Numbered from the stretch's first letter, positions 21,608 through 27,530 are shown. The stretch is 64,000 nt of DNA from Pseudanabaena sp. FACHB-1998 (GCF_014696355.1 NZ_JACJQA010000026.1:62001-126000), one strand, 5' to 3'. Notes: generated by a model from the sequence alone, not told the origin. Made by a program: numbers and translations.

Positions 21608-22720
21608 TTAATAGACAGGTAGGGTAAAGCGGAAACAACTGCCTTTTTTACCGATCGCATCATCAACCCAGATGTGTCCATAGTGAGCAGTGATAATCCG
21701 CCGACAAAGCGATAAACCGATGCCATAGCCTTCCGCTTCCCCATCACGTTCCAGACGATAGCGCTCCTCAAACACGCGATCGCGCAATTCCGCAGGAATC
21801 CCCGGTCCATTATCAGTAATACTAATTTCGATTTTTTGAACTGTGCGATGCATCACCGTTAGCTCGATTTTGCCGCCTTCGGGAGTGTATTTAGTAGCAT
21901 TGCCTAACAGATTAATTAAAACTTGGCGAATCTTTTCCTGATCGATATAAACGGGAGGCAAATCCGTAGGAATATCTTTGACCAGCTTTTGCATCTTTTC
22001 TTCTAAACATTTATTGAAGTAAAAATCACTAACGACACTATGGCATAGTTGATCGAATTGGATTTTTTGGCGTTGTGTCCGAAATTTAGCATTAGCACCT
22101 CTCCCCGCTTCGAGAATATCTGTAATCATGCAGTCAGCATCACGAGCTTTATTGCGAGCATGTTTGAGTAATCTTGCCGTCATTTGGGGATCGATTTTGT
22201 CGCCACTTTTTTCGATCGTATCGATCGCCAGTAAAATTGCGGTTAAAGGGTTGCGTAAGTCATGGGCAAGCATCCCCAGCACGCGATCTTTAAAGCGAAG
22301 TTGTTCCTCAATCTCCGCCTTTTCTTGAGAAAGGCGAAACACATCGTCGGCAAGATGGGCAACTTCTGACATATATTCAATATTTTGGGCGAGTTCAGGT
22401 GGATAGTAATTTGGTTCATCTAAAACTTGCTGTTTCCAAGTATCCCAACAATTTTCCAGTTGCTTGATTAAATTTTTCCCTGCGATCGTTTGACGGGGCA
22501 AAGGTGATAGTTTGAGCAGAGCAGGAGACATCACTACTTTAAATAGTTCTGCTAATTGGGGCTGACCTGCAACATTAATGATCTGCAATTCCGAAGGACA
22601 GTTATTTTCTCGTTGCAAAAACTCTTCTACTTCTTTGACCAGATCTTTTGCCTTAGGGCGATCGTCGATAAAAAGTAGGAGTTGAAGAGTTGATTCAGGT
22701 AATGTTTGAATAGTCCTCAT
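21608..22720 (-). CDS. sasA: Circadian output histidine kinase SasA
   Basis: A 370-residue kinase with the SasA architecture. An N-terminal KaiB-like thioredoxin-fold domain (about residues 9-100: LQLLLFIDDRPKAKDLVKEVEEFL...ELQIINVAGQPQLAELFKVVMSPALLKLSPLPRQTIAG) is followed by a linker helix. The DHp domain carries the phosphoacceptor His in LGMLAHDLRNPLTAI, and an HATPase domain shows NLLGNATKYTPEGG, DNGPGIP and GYGIGLSLCRRI. SasA binds KaiC and phosphorylates RpaA. No kai gene is in the window. ATG at 22718-22720 is preferred to an upstream TTG. Confidence 0.93.
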   Translation of the reverse strand: MRTIQTLPESTLQLLLFIDDRPKAKDLVKEVEEFLQRENNCPSELQIINVAGQPQLAELFKVVMSPALLKLSPLPRQTIAGKNLIKQLENCWDTWKQQVLDEPNYYPPELAQNIEYMSEVAHLADDVFRLSQEKAEIEEQLRFKDRVLGMLAHDLRNPLTAILLAIDTIEKSGDKIDPQMTARLLKHARNKARDADCMITDILEAGRGANAKFRTQRQKIQFDQLCHSVVSDFYFNKCLEEKMQKLVKDIPTDLPPVYIDQEKIRQVLINLLGNATKYTPEGGKIELTVMHRTVQKIEISITDNGPGIPAELRDRVFEERYRLERDGEAEGYGIGLSLCRRIITAHYGHIWVDDAIGKKGSCFRFTLPVY

Positions 22721-22778
22721 TGTTTTTCGGACTCGCAACGGATTTTAATACATTCTTAATAATTATATTATTGTTCTC

Positions 22779-23945
22779 ATGAGTTTACCTCAACAGCGCT
22801 GGCAGATTTTCTCACCACAGACGGATCTCGCAAAATCTATAGCCGATGCTACAGGACTTTCACCCATAATTGCTCAGATTTTACTCAATAGAGGGATCAA
22901 TACCCCTGAATTAGCTAAAATCTTCCTCGATCCCGAACTTGAAGCCCTTCCTGATCCTAAACAGGAATTTCCCGATTTAATTACAAGTATTGATCGCATT
23001 GAGCAAGCGATCAAAAATAACGATCGCATTACGATCTGCGGTGATTATGATGTCGATGGCATGACTAGCACGGCTCTTTTAATTCGTACTTTGCGTTTAT
23101 TGGGGGGTAATGTCGAATATGAAATTCCTAGTCGGATGACCGAGGGATATGGCATTAATAAGCGAATTGTGCAGGATTGTCACGATCGCGAAGTGAAGTT
23201 AATCATCACCGTGGACAATGGGATCGCCGCCTACGAGGCGATCGCCTTTGCGGAATCCTTAAATATTTCTGTGATTGTGACCGATCACCATGAGGTTCCC
23301 GAAGACCCCAGCAAAATTCCGCCCGCTACCGCCATTCTTAATCCTAAATATCAGGTCGAGCCTACTTCGCCCTATGCGGCGATCGCGGGGGTGGGTGTTG
23401 CCTACGTATTGGCTTTGGAATTGAGCGATCGCTTTGGTAAACGTGATGAATTAGAAAATCCGTTACTAGAATTATTCACCCTTGGCACGATCGCCGATCT
23501 TGCTTCCTTAACAGACATCAATCGTCGTTTGGTCAGAAAAGGTCTTCGCCTCCTTTCGCAATCTAAGGTAATCGGCATTATTGCTCTAATCAATGAAACA
23601 GGCATTGCTAAAGATAAACAAACAGGGATGAAACCTGAAGCGATCGGCTTTGGTTTAGGTCCCCGAATTAATGCGATCGGCAGAATTGGCAATCCGCAGA
23701 CGGTGATTGAGCTTTTAACCTGTGATGACATGGGGCAGGCGATCGCCTTGGCGCAAGAATGTGAAGCTACTAATAAAGAGCGTCAAAAACTTTGCCAAGA
23801 AATCGAACAAGAAGCGATCGCCTATATGTCAAAGCTCAAATCAGAGGGTTTTGATATTACGCAGGAACGGGTTTTGGTAATAGTTGATCGCGAAGTGCAG
23901 GATACTCTCTATCCTGCTCCCAAGGGAAATAGGGAGATGGCGTAG
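22779..23945 (+). CDS. recJ: RecJ exonuclease, N-terminal half (gene split)
   Basis: Encodes 388 residues, about half a normal RecJ. All DHH phosphoesterase motifs are present: ICGDYDVDGMTSTALL (motif I), TVDNGIA, VTDHHEVP (the DHH motif) and later AGVGVAYVLA and GFGLGPRINAIGR. The frame runs as RecJ to about RVLVIVDREV, then through about 16 unrelated residues to a TAG at 23943-23945. That stop lies in the centre of a small imperfect palindrome. The DHHA1 and OB-fold half continues at 25510, fused to another N-terminus. As annotated this is a broken or split gene; whether the halves still cooperate is unknown. Confidence 0.9.
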   Translation: MSLPQQRWQIFSPQTDLAKSIADATGLSPIIAQILLNRGINTPELAKIFLDPELEALPDPKQEFPDLITSIDRIEQAIKNNDRITICGDYDVDGMTSTALLIRTLRLLGGNVEYEIPSRMTEGYGINKRIVQDCHDREVKLIITVDNGIAAYEAIAFAESLNISVIVTDHHEVPEDPSKIPPATAILNPKYQVEPTSPYAAIAGVGVAYVLALELSDRFGKRDELENPLLELFTLGTIADLASLTDINRRLVRKGLRLLSQSKVIGIIALINETGIAKDKQTGMKPEAIGFGLGPRINAIGRIGNPQTVIELLTCDDMGQAIALAQECEATNKERQKLCQEIEQEAIAYMSKLKSEGFDITQERVLVIVDREVQDTLYPAPKGNREMA

Positions 23946-23952
23946 CTATTTC
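23934..23952. repeat. Degenerate GTA-centred palindrome at the truncated recJ end
   Basis: GAGATGGC and GCTATTTC flank GTA; the two mismatches would be G-U pairs in RNA. It resembles the perfect ATGGC-GTA-GCCAT palindrome at 29740-29772. The recJ-N stop falls in its centre. Confidence 0.5.
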
Positions 23953-23984
23953 TTTGTTTGAAAACCCTTGCTGGGTGTGGTTTT

Positions 23985-24021
23985 CAATTCACAAACATTG
24001 TGGTCACACTTTTGTGAATTG
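23985..24021. repeat. Inverted repeat, 11-bp arms
   Basis: CAATTCACAAA pairs with TTTGTGAATTG, with further partial pairing inside. AATTCACAAA and its complement also form the outer arms of the HIP1-centred palindrome at 38665-38700. Confidence 0.65.
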
Positions 24022-24053
24022 GTATTATAAAGTTTAAGTTAGGTGAAGTCATT

Positions 24054-24698
24054 ATGAACACATTACTCAAACCAGCCTCAAACCAACTAAACACATGGAT
24101 TAGCGCACCGTGGACAGAATTTGTGGCGATTGCCGATGCAACCGATAGTGCCAAACGCAAAAGCTATTACTACCAGCACCAGATGAGATTTGAGAATATG
24201 TCCACAGGCTCCGATCATGCCAACGATCACGCATTAATTTTATTTGCCCTCTCCTTTTATGCCGCCACAAAGCAAATCCCCATGACTGCCAAAGATGGCT
24301 GCTCCTATCGTCAAAGCGGAAAAACTGAGTTTCAGCCTGATGTCTCCTATTACATCGGTGACAATGCCGATGCGATCGCTTGGGGAACGCGCATCATTGA
24401 CCTCGATCAATATCCCTTACCCGATCTCGTCATTGAAATATCTGACACCACCTTCAACGATGACCTCGGCACAAAACGCCTGCAATACGAAGAACTAGGC
24501 ATCAAAGAATATTGGATCGTCAATGTCCAAACTATGAAAATCTATGCCTTTGCGATCGCCCCAGATGGCAGCAGCCATCATATTCGCCAATCCCTAGTGC
24601 TATCTGGACTAAAACTTGAAATCTTAGAACAAGTTCTCGAACTCAGTCGCCAAGAAAATCAATCAACCGTCACCGCATGGCTAATGAAGCAATTCTAA
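24054..24698 (+). CDS. Uma2 family (DUF820) protein inside the split recJ
   Basis: A 214-residue Uma2/DUF820 protein of a different subgroup from the one at 18346. The nuclease-like core is visible: EFQPDVSYYIGDN, then LPDLVIEISDTTFNDDLGTKRLQYEELGIKEYWIVN and a long C-terminal helix. It lies between the two recJ halves and upstream of the HsdR-like/RecJ fusion, on the same strand. It is therefore part of the DNA that interrupted recJ, or arrived later at the same place. Role unknown. Confidence 0.85.
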   Translation: MNTLLKPASNQLNTWISAPWTEFVAIADATDSAKRKSYYYQHQMRFENMSTGSDHANDHALILFALSFYAATKQIPMTAKDGCSYRQSGKTEFQPDVSYYIGDNADAIAWGTRIIDLDQYPLPDLVIEISDTTFNDDLGTKRLQYEELGIKEYWIVNVQTMKIYAFAIAPDGSSHHIRQSLVLSGLKLEILEQVLELSRQENQSTVTAWLMKQF

Positions 24699-24768
24699 CG
24701 AGAGATAACAAGCGATATAGATTGAGAAGTTTGTCAGTTTAGAAATATGCAACTTAAGTTAGAAGCAA

Positions 24769-26739
24769 ATGGAAATACAGTCAGCGAATTTTAGTTTTTT
24801 GCGCGAGCATGATCCACAATTGGTAAATCTTGCTGCCCGCGCTGAACAGTATTTCCACACTGACAGCAATACCTGCATCATCAAACTTCGACAATTTGCC
24901 GAGCGTCTTGCCCAGCATATCGCCGACCAGACAGAGCATTATCAAGCAGAAGATGAAGCGCAGATAGATTTGCTAAGACGACTTGAAGCAGAAGGTGTCA
25001 TTTCTCGTGAAGTCGCTAAACTTTTCTATAACATTCGCAAAGGAGGCAACAACGCCGCTCATACAGTCAAAGATGACAGACGCGAAGCCCTCGCCCTCCT
25101 CAAAAATGCGCATGAGTTAGGCAACTGGTTTCATCACGAATTTGGTAATGACAGGAATTTTAGACCATCGCCATTCGTACCGCCTGTTGCGCCCATCGAT
25201 GCCACTGCCGAATTGAGAGCCAAAATCGCGGAACTGCAAGCACTCATTGATGAAACACAAGTAGACAAGATTGATGTCATCGATGTAATGAAAGCTGAAA
25301 TCGAGAGGCTCCAAGCACTCGTTGCCGCAGTAGGCAAGAAACGAAAAAAGAGGGTAATCAAACCAAAACGAAAACCAGCAAAGACAATCGCTGAAAACCC
25401 ACCAATCGTAAATCCCGAAACACCTGAGGATATCCCTGAGCTACCACCAATTGCTGCCCCAAATATCCCTATCTCTCCCCAAAAGAAAGTAGAGAAGAGT
25501 AAGAGAAAGGGATGGCATCATGGCGTGATTGGTATTGTTGCCTCTCGGCTAGTAGAACGTTATGGCGCACCTGTATTTATTGGTAGTTACGAAGATGCCC
25601 ATGATGATGATTCTGAACAAGGTGCAACTGTGCGCTTCTCAGTGCGGGGAATTCCCGAATTTCATGTTTTCCAAGCCCTTGAATATGAACCGATTAAAAC
25701 TATTCGCAACAAAGGCGGCGGACATAAGGCGGCGGGAGGGTTTACTCTGCCTGCGGCGAATCTGGAACAATTGCGGCAAGGTCTACGGGAATTTGCCGAT
25801 CGCGAGAATATTCTGCCTAGCCACATTAGCCCCCTAATCAATATTGATGTGCGTATTGACCTCAGTGATGTCTCCATGACCCTGCTGCAAGAATGCGATC
25901 GCCTTCAGCCCTGTGGGCTAGGCAACCCCGATCCTGTTTTTTATAGCGAAAATGTACGGGTACTGGCTCAGCAAACTCGCGGTAAAGACAAAGTCAAGCA
26001 TCTCTCTTTAGAACTCGATACTGGTAACGGCAAAATTAAGGCGATCGCTTGGCGATGGGGAGAATATTGTCCAATTCCTGATCGCGTGGATATTGCTTAC
26101 AAATTACGGGCAAACCAATGGCAAGATACAACTTCCGTAGAATTAGAAGTAGTGGGAATACGAGCCGCTACTTCTGATATAGAAACTTCTCAAAGTTTAG
26201 CTAAACAAATCAAAGTGCAGTATAAACCTGCGCCTGTGATTACAAAATTTCCGCAATGGCAAAAACTGAGCGAAGCGCCAAGACCCCTGCCCCGTCCCTT
26301 ACTGCTCTATGGTTGCGATCGCCCTGCGGATAAGTTTCAAGGTGATGTCGATTGCGATCGCCCAAGACGCGATATAGATTATCAGGCGATCGTGCTCTGG
26401 ACTTTACCGCCATCTTTTACCCATCTACAATGGCTAATTGCCACCGCTAAACCAGACTATATCTACCTTGGTTCCCATCTTCCATCTGTTCCATCTATCG
26501 ACCAATTCCGTTCCCAAATCTATTCTCTCGATGTAGAAAATATTCCCGTTCTCAATCTCTTAGATCTCGCGCAGCAATGGTGGATTTCCCCTAGCGCGAT
26601 CGTCTCGGCGCTAAGAGAGATAGGTTATCTCTGCGATTTCCCAGAGACTTTGCCTCTCGAAGGTGAATTACTCAGAATGCAAAAATGGTATGGTATAGCC
26701 ATTAATAAACTTTCAGCAATTCTTATGAATGAACAATAG
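24769..26739 (+). CDS. recJ: HsdR-like N-terminus fused to RecJ C-terminal half
   Basis: A 656-residue chimera. Residues 1-130 (SANFSFLREHDPQLVNLAARAEQYF, IKLRQFAERLAQ, NNAAHTVKDDRREALALLKNAHELGNWFH) match the DUF4145-type N-terminal domain found at the start of type I restriction R-subunits and related helicases. A coiled coil (about 146-190), a Lys/Arg-rich stretch and a Pro-rich linker follow. From Gly248 (GWHHGVIGIVASRLVERYG) it is RecJ, with the DHHA1 motif GGGHKAAGG, an OB-type domain and the cyanobacterial C-terminal extension. The junction is in frame and the frame is open throughout. No helicase motor or nuclease domain of HsdR remains. Confidence 0.88.
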   Translation: MEIQSANFSFLREHDPQLVNLAARAEQYFHTDSNTCIIKLRQFAERLAQHIADQTEHYQAEDEAQIDLLRRLEAEGVISREVAKLFYNIRKGGNNAAHTVKDDRREALALLKNAHELGNWFHHEFGNDRNFRPSPFVPPVAPIDATAELRAKIAELQALIDETQVDKIDVIDVMKAEIERLQALVAAVGKKRKKRVIKPKRKPAKTIAENPPIVNPETPEDIPELPPIAAPNIPISPQKKVEKSKRKGWHHGVIGIVASRLVERYGAPVFIGSYEDAHDDDSEQGATVRFSVRGIPEFHVFQALEYEPIKTIRNKGGGHKAAGGFTLPAANLEQLRQGLREFADRENILPSHISPLINIDVRIDLSDVSMTLLQECDRLQPCGLGNPDPVFYSENVRVLAQQTRGKDKVKHLSLELDTGNGKIKAIAWRWGEYCPIPDRVDIAYKLRANQWQDTTSVELEVVGIRAATSDIETSQSLAKQIKVQYKPAPVITKFPQWQKLSEAPRPLPRPLLLYGCDRPADKFQGDVDCDRPRRDIDYQAIVLWTLPPSFTHLQWLIATAKPDYIYLGSHLPSVPSIDQFRSQIYSLDVENIPVLNLLDLAQQWWISPSAIVSALREIGYLCDFPETLPLEGELLRMQKWYGIAINKLSAILMNEQ

Positions 26740-26894: not shown

Positions 26895-27530
26895 ATGCTA
26901 GCTATTAGTGAAATCGTCAAAAATGGAATTATATTTGACATGAAAAATTGGGGTAACGACCAATCAGGAATTGGTAATTTATCTGAGAATATTGATCGCC
27001 TATTTGCTCTTTTGCAAGAACGTGAAATAAATTATTTACTTGTTGGGGGTGTCGCATTACTTAGCTATGTTGATGGTCGTAATACACAGGATATTGATCT
27101 TATACTTTCTCACAAAGATCTTAGTGCAATTCCTGAATTAGCAATTGCTGATAAAAATCAAAACTTTGCTAGAGCTAATTTTGATAATCTTCAAGTGGAT
27201 ATTTTATTAACTCAGAACTTGTTATTTAAATACATAGCTAAAAATTGTACTACTTTAAGACAATTTGGTGATTTAAATATACGTTGTGTCACGGTTGAAG
27301 GCTTACTAATTCTTAAATTATATGCACTACCTTCTCTATATCGACAAAATAAATTTGATCGAGCTAGTATTTATGAAAATGATATTTTATTACTACTGCT
27401 CAAATATCCCACTGAATTAGAACCAATTTGGAAATTACTCCAAAAGCACTTACTACCTAGTGATATTTTAGAAATTCAAGAAATTACTTCAGATATTCAA
27501 AAACGTATTAAGCGATTTCAAAATAGATAA
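26895..27530 (+). CDS. MNT-fold nucleotidyltransferase, orphan
   Basis: A 211-residue protein with a minimal nucleotidyltransferase motif: INYLLVGGVALLSYVDGRNTQDIDLIL, with the GG pair at 51-52 and metal-binding Asp66 and Asp68 (DxD). A third acidic residue is plausible in NLQVDILLTQN. Such proteins include AbiEii-type toxins and DUF6036 proteins. No AbiEi antitoxin or HEPN partner is adjacent, so toxin function is only a possibility. Codons look more AT-rich than neighbouring housekeeping genes. Its last codons and stop are within the palindrome at 27519-27583. Confidence 0.75.
   Translation: MLAISEIVKNGIIFDMKNWGNDQSGIGNLSENIDRLFALLQEREINYLLVGGVALLSYVDGRNTQDIDLILSHKDLSAIPELAIADKNQNFARANFDNLQVDILLTQNLLFKYIAKNCTTLRQFGDLNIRCVTVEGLLILKLYALPSLYRQNKFDRASIYENDILLLLLKYPTELEPIWKLLQKHLLPSDILEIQEITSDIQKRIKRFQNR

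Follow-up and report, generated by a model that had tools for sequence, protein, structure and literature searches.

What becomes of a DNA repair nuclease when foreign DNA cuts its gene in two? The question is raised by a 64,000-nucleotide stretch of the Pseudanabaena sp. FACHB-1998 genome (NZ_JACJQA010000026.1:62001-126000; hereafter the window), in which the coding sequence of the RecJ exonuclease is shared between two open reading frames (ORFs). The earlier note on this DNA, made by a reader who saw only the window, had described a recJ cut by about 1.6 kb of foreign DNA, with homology stopping near 23900 and resuming at 25510, and two intact, in-frame halves that together reach the length of a normal RecJ and may still assemble as a split nuclease. 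From a comparison of 26 Pseudanabaena genomes we consider it quite probable that a cassette split recJ, that the split allele has spread by recombination, and that the two RecJ proteins assemble in trans.

RecJ is encoded in two pieces

RecJ homology ends at about residue 372 of the first ORF (22779-23945; nucleotide ~23895) and restarts at residue 246-248 of the second (24769-26739; nucleotides 25504-25510), which leaves a gap of ~1.61 kb, in agreement with the earlier note. Both frames are open, and between them they tile the NCBIfam RecJ model TIGR00644 (positions 2-339 in the first ORF, 335-543 of 546 in the second), so that no part of RecJ is missing. The motifs GDYDVDG, TVDNG, TDHH, GTIAD and GGGHKAAGG are all found, which bears out the claim that the metal-binding motifs and GGGHKAAGG are kept with no visible decay. 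The DHH and DHHA1 motifs and the RecJ OB domain of a RecJ exonuclease are thus all present, spread over two ORFs instead of a single polypeptide.

The earlier note had placed a DHH half and a DHHA1/OB half on separate genes. The genes are indeed separate, but the cut does not fall between the two domains; it lies inside DHHA1. In the second ORF, alignment to the Pfam DHHA1 profile starts from position 10, and the interruption falls between VLVIVDRE, the expected first strand of the domain, and WHHGVIGIVASRL, its expected first helix. Similarly, the insert is foreign as claimed, but the C half is not a bare half: it is fused to some 190 residues from the N terminus of HsdR, and the insert also carries a gene of the Uma2 family (PF05685 match). 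The HsdR-derived part is the source of the start codon for the RecJ C half.

Distribution of the split allele

The sister-strain comparison proposed in the earlier note shows that recJ is split in 14 of the 26 genomes, contiguously in 11 and with dispersed halves in three, and that the other 12 have whole alleles. Relatives of the window's Uma2 gene in named genomes identify the genus as Pseudanabaena. The contiguous genomes have the order recJN, Uma2, RecJC at one locus, two of them on chromosome-sized contigs (G007 and G015), and ten of these eleven carry the HsdR domain on the C half, deletion having reduced it to a stub in G018. In G003, G009 and G011 the N half stops at the same point and the C half is found on a different contig. 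Recurrence of the same split in the eleven genomes, including the two chromosome-sized contigs, and in the three with halves apart rules out an assembly error of one genome. The N half is open and 83-90% identical in the other split genomes.

In the remaining genomes recJ is uninterrupted, where the contig is long enough, and has at the split site a variable in-frame linker of a few to ~60 residues, often made of the repeat peptide LTPSPSPKGGEG. In the whole alleles L046, L047, L049, L051, L055 and L058 the same DHHA1 loop is occupied by in-frame REP-like repeat peptides (LTPSPSPKGGEG, LSPTGRGAGGEG); the loop therefore tolerates insertions. Outside the genus, no frame of N-half size was found among the matches listed (38 genomes of the order and 291 of the class), where the shortest RecJ frames are 475, 519 and 572 aa. 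The class-wide listing also contains many cyanobacterial genomes outside the genus with RecJ frames of ~1030-1230 aa, against 660-830 aa in others.

Selection on the two halves

All 14 N halves and all 14 C halves are open; in simulations, less than 1% of either half is still open after 0.1 random substitutions per site. The median ratio of nonsynonymous to synonymous divergence (dN/dS) is 0.058 in split and 0.068 in whole alleles for the N half, and 0.108 and 0.088, respectively, for the C half. The estimate for each half that the earlier note had called for (N ~0.06, C ~0.11) therefore matches the low level of uninterrupted alleles. The first block of the C half, linked to the split ever since the split arose, offers the fairest test; with a dN/dS of 0.101 in split alleles, compared with 0.062 in whole ones, it is still strongly constrained. 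The metal and substrate motifs are kept with two departures, both conservative (GTISD in G004 and GGGHRAAGG in G007). In view of the open frames and dN/dS we reject the reading of the halves as pseudogenes. A few near-fixed amino-acid differences in DHHA1 distinguish split from whole alleles; we do not interpret these as adaptation to the split, since some whole alleles (G002 and G020) have the split-like form.

The genomes with dispersed halves are informative here. In G003 the contig with the N half continues for 58 kb and that with the C half extends back for 31 kb, with no partner half on either, and the halves are separated by at least 13 kb in G009 and at least 24 kb in G011. Uma2 remnants at the broken ends, after the N half in G009 and G011 and before the C half in G003 and G011, suggest rearrangement at the insert. 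Between G009 and G013, both split and one of them dispersed, dN/dS is 0.060 for the N half and 0.122 for the C half. As both halves are selected even when they are not neighbours, a two-subunit RecJ assembled in trans is the simplest explanation; selection, in dispersed halves as well, thus lends support to the suggestion that the halves may still assemble as a split nuclease.

Origin of the insert

Uma2 precedes a full HsdR in G012 and G003; the window insert is thus the beginning of a uma2-hsdR type I restriction operon whose truncated hsdR is joined to recJC. At a site away from recJ, G012 has a Uma2 gene 92% identical to that of the window, followed directly by a full HsdR (1090 aa) and HsdM. 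In G003 a complete type I restriction operon lies downstream of the recJ N half (L084:6420-18286), where the gene order is recJ N half, GGDEF-type gene, Uma2, full HsdR (1104 aa), HsdM, small toxin-antitoxin-like genes and HsdS; Uma2 stands directly before full-length HsdR and HsdM in both L071 and L084. From a full system of HsdR, HsdM and HsdS, the window insert contains only the HsdR-derived residues 4-193 of the fusion. The deletion in hsdR probably came after the insertion.

The Uma2 family is classed among the PD-(D/E)XK nucleases (PMC1913061). The gene in recJ has a dN/dS of 0.148, and its motifs LPDLVIEI and KRLQYEE are identical in 11 genomes. A phage origin was considered and rejected, with no match to Uma2 in viral contigs. 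A second Uma2 lineage, 68-74% identical, lies between sodB and an alcohol-dehydrogenase-like gene in six genomes with whole recJ (L072, L075-L079).

Spread of the split allele between species

The split state is scattered over the genus: well-supported branches of a tree of the independent sasA and second recJ markers, in which long branches call for caution, force at least six state changes. Within recJ the signal depends on the segment. A clade of split alleles is rejected for recJN 0-1000 (approximately unbiased test, p-AU 3e-47) and also for recJC from column 480 to the end (p-AU 5e-4). The first 480 columns of recJC place all 14 split alleles in one clade (support 99/96) with a single state change, a value reached in 0 of 500 shuffles; the rest of the C half requires eight changes, and breakpoints lie near +450 of the C half. 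Neighbouring segments give differing trees, and recombination at the recJ locus is therefore common.

Synonymous divergence (dS) follows the same geography. Its median over pairs of split alleles, whose values are not independent of one another, is 1.12 in distal recJN, 0.66 in the last 93 nt of recJN, 0.37 in Uma2, 0.68 in the first 450 nt of recJC and 1.15 beyond. For G019-G004, dS is 0.03 in Uma2 against 0.90 in recJN, and for G018-G016 it is 0.04 against 0.53. Low dS is not a general property of Uma2, as the control set of Uma2 genes beside sodB has dS like its neighbours. A single allele illustrates the pattern: in the N half windows shown, G015 shares 92-100% identity with its whole relatives G025 and G022, and from +450 of the C half it shares 87-95%, but between those flanks identity to these relatives is 60-81%, and to the split G023 it is 91-98%. 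The scattered state, the single clade in the first recJC block and the dS minimum at Uma2 indicate that the split allele has a single origin and has been copied between species by homologous recombination with co-converted flanks.

We infer the following order of insertion and deletion. The first part of a type I restriction operon (uma2-hsdR) would have entered the length-tolerant loop of recJ, between the first strand and the first helix of DHHA1, in an ancestral member of Pseudanabaena. Loss of most of hsdR would then have left ~190 codons from its 5' end joined in frame to the recJ C half, which would thereby have gained a start codon of its own; the result is the three-gene unit recJN, uma2, hsdRN::recJC. 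The N and C proteins most likely join non-covalently in trans to form one active exonuclease, to which the N protein would contribute the DHH active site and the first DHHA1 strand, and the C protein the remainder of DHHA1 and the OB fold. Homologous recombination via the recJ flanks, with ~90 bp of recJN and ~450 bp of recJC carried along, then spread the split allele repeatedly between species.

What drives the spread

We find it reasonably likely that the allele moves by ordinary interspecies recombination of recJ, for instance through natural transformation, whether passive or selected, with Uma2 as a passenger. This would fit a working split RecJ, and it agrees with the frequency of recombination at a locus whose segment trees disagree and with the persistence of three split genomes without an intact cassette between the halves. 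Alone, however, it leaves the divergence minimum on Uma2 (dS as low as 0.03) unexplained.

A stronger version of the recombination account concerns the drive of the spread. Uma2 may be a homing-type endonuclease that cuts whole recJ near the loop, whereupon repair from the split allele copies the cassette in, and the split RecJ is the price; we hold this only tentatively. As in homing genes, a nuclease gene is found at one site that is empty in relatives (of the alleles in this single genus, 14 are split and 12 whole), and its repeated horizontal spread is accompanied by co-conversion of the flanks on both sides. An intact, selected gene of a nuclease family lies at the centre of the low-divergence tract, and Uma2 is decayed in G009 and G011, as in a cycle of gain and decay. 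Against this, other Uma2 genes related to this one lie between genes or in restriction operons and split nothing, and a linked block around an insert of single origin is also expected from ordinary allele recombination. Furthermore, homing into empty sites does not by itself account for the observation that, even among split alleles, Uma2 differs less than the exon blocks do. Cutting of the empty recJ allele by Uma2, with biased inheritance, is possible. We would advance with slightly more reserve still the general proposition that a Uma2 nuclease of restriction operons acts as a homing endonuclease in bacterial chromosomes, and that in recJ it has made a two-subunit enzyme and spreads between species via recombination, RecJ's own pathway.

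Do the two halves still make a RecJ?

On the preferred account of a two-piece RecJ, we infer that the two proteins assemble and have nuclease activity. It seems improbable that one half has instead taken on a new role, the HsdR-RecJC fusion acting for example as a DNA-binding protein, and that the pair no longer forms RecJ. The new N-terminal domain on the C half in most genomes and the slightly raised dN/dS of the first C block would fit such a role; yet the fused domain is absent in G003 and G009 and a stub in G018, RecJC is retained in all three, and the substrate motif of DHHA1 is kept.

We give even less credence to the idea that the halves are non-functional relics, tolerated because a second RecJ paralog suffices. 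The earlier note had pointed to a second recJ or a tolerated loss, and the proposed search for an intact recJ elsewhere did find an uninterrupted paralog (G000:C20:147692.., 791 aa, 37% identity). Every genome of the genus that was checked has a second RecJ-type gene, with a length of ~720-790 aa and 35-39% identity, and in the passage of PMC10667661 that cites work from 2002, a Synechocystis recJ deletion mutant is described as viable and better at DNA uptake. The paralog nevertheless fails as the reason for the split: as split and whole species both have one, under equal constraint, compensation by a duplicate recJ is ruled out. Nor are the halves decaying; all are open, with dN/dS of 0.06-0.12 and motifs kept bar the two conservative changes, dispersed halves included. 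The second RecJ of G003 (L118) is unusually divergent, with a long branch, a dN of 0.29 to its relatives and a different start, and may have been acquired from elsewhere. That RNA or protein splicing rejoins one RecJ chain can safely be set aside: the layout is like that of a fractured gene with an endonuclease between its parts, but Rfam gives no match to an intron family up to E 1, the Pfam scan shows no intein domain, the C half begins with a foreign domain, and the halves lie on different contigs in three genomes.

Several points count against a two-piece RecJ spread by recombination. The second RecJ-type protein could share the load. The somewhat higher dN/dS of the C block in split alleles is compatible with mild relaxation or adaptation, and the low dN/dS of the N half is less direct evidence on the split state than the C block, because outside the flank block the N half has partly evolved in whole genes. 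Values of dS near 1 are close to saturation. Finally, AlphaFold models built from shallow alignments (mean pLDDT 47 and 60) were too poor for an interface and were not used.

Features and neighbours of the locus

The features of the locus are collected in Table 1. A scan for promoters and terminators gave matches no more numerous than in shuffles. Divergent from recJ lies a gene for a SasA-like KaiB-domain histidine kinase (window 21608-22738, minus strand), found 5' of recJN in 26 of 26 genomes. Directly 3' of the recJ C half is a nucleotidyltransferase-like ORF with weak AbiEii similarity (window 26895-27530); the context downstream of the C half varies between species.

Table 1. Features of the split recJ locus, in window coordinates.
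Feature	Position	Strand	Evidence
recJ N half, 388 aa	22779..23945	+	TIGR00644 2-339/546; Pfam DHH E 3e-24
Content of recJ N half: DHH domain with metal motifs, long helix, first DHHA1 strand VLVIVDRE, 16-aa tail	22779..23945	+	
Left flank block, lowered divergence between split alleles, co-converted with insert	23850..23945	+	dS, sliding identity
Perfect 11-nt inverted repeat with 15-nt loop, 5' of Uma2	23985..24021	+	
Uma2-family putative endonuclease (PD-(D/E)XK-type), intact, 214 aa	24054..24698	+	Pfam PF05685 E 3.9e-20
Fusion gene, 656 aa: HsdR N-terminal domain, linker, RecJ C half	24769..26739	+	
HsdR-derived part, fusion residues 4-193, includes DUF4145	24778..25347	+	NF008521 2-194/1123, E 2.6e-43
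Variable linker in fusion gene	25348..25503	+	comparison of split genomes
RecJ C half: DHHA1 without first strand, OB fold, C-terminal region	25504..26739	+	TIGR00644 335-543/546; DHHA1 10-99/102; RecJ_OB E 2.9e-25
Right flank block travelling with split; all split alleles one clade here	25504..25960	+	99/96 support

Comparison with known systems

Our searches of the open-access library yielded no description of a split recJ and none of Uma2 acting in this way. Genes that are split by a nuclease insertion and keep their function have been described from phages; the gene split here serves DNA repair on a bacterial chromosome, and about half of the genus has it in this form. Within the genus, alleles in empty, filled, decayed and dispersed states coexist and amount to natural replicates of gene fission. 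The predicted enzyme would be a natural split exonuclease cut within a domain and not between domains. Uma2 is a very common cyanobacterial family whose function is unproven, and the locus offers a test of whether it is a mobile nuclease.

Alignment with bacterial RecJ (TIGR00644; PDB 5f54, 2zxo, 8y30) spans the whole core, all motifs included, when the two halves are taken together; they differ in being encoded by two genes instead of one, with the C half fused to an HsdR domain. Type I operons with a PRK11448-type HsdR resemble the insert in that Uma2 lies directly before hsdR and the fused domain is the HsdR N terminus; the window insert lacks the helicase and nuclease parts of HsdR, HsdM and HsdS. 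Fractured genes have split inteins with a homing endonuclease between them. They share with recJ the nuclease gene between coding halves; recJ differs in having no intein parts, and no covalent rejoining is expected.

The closest precedent is phage Aeh1, in which mobE splits nrdA and two proteins form the active enzyme; further phage cases are the T4 topoisomerase and gene 43 of phage 25 (PMC2988022). In nrdA as in recJ, a free-standing nuclease gene sits in a critical part of an enzyme gene and two polypeptides result. Function is kept through assembly in Aeh1, while assembly of the recJ pair is a prediction from sequence. The recJ case differs further in that the gene is a chromosomal repair gene of bacteria, the nuclease is a PD-(D/E)XK Uma2 from a restriction operon, and the C half has gained its start through fusion to HsdR, with the split allele spread over many species and its halves in places dispersed in the genome.

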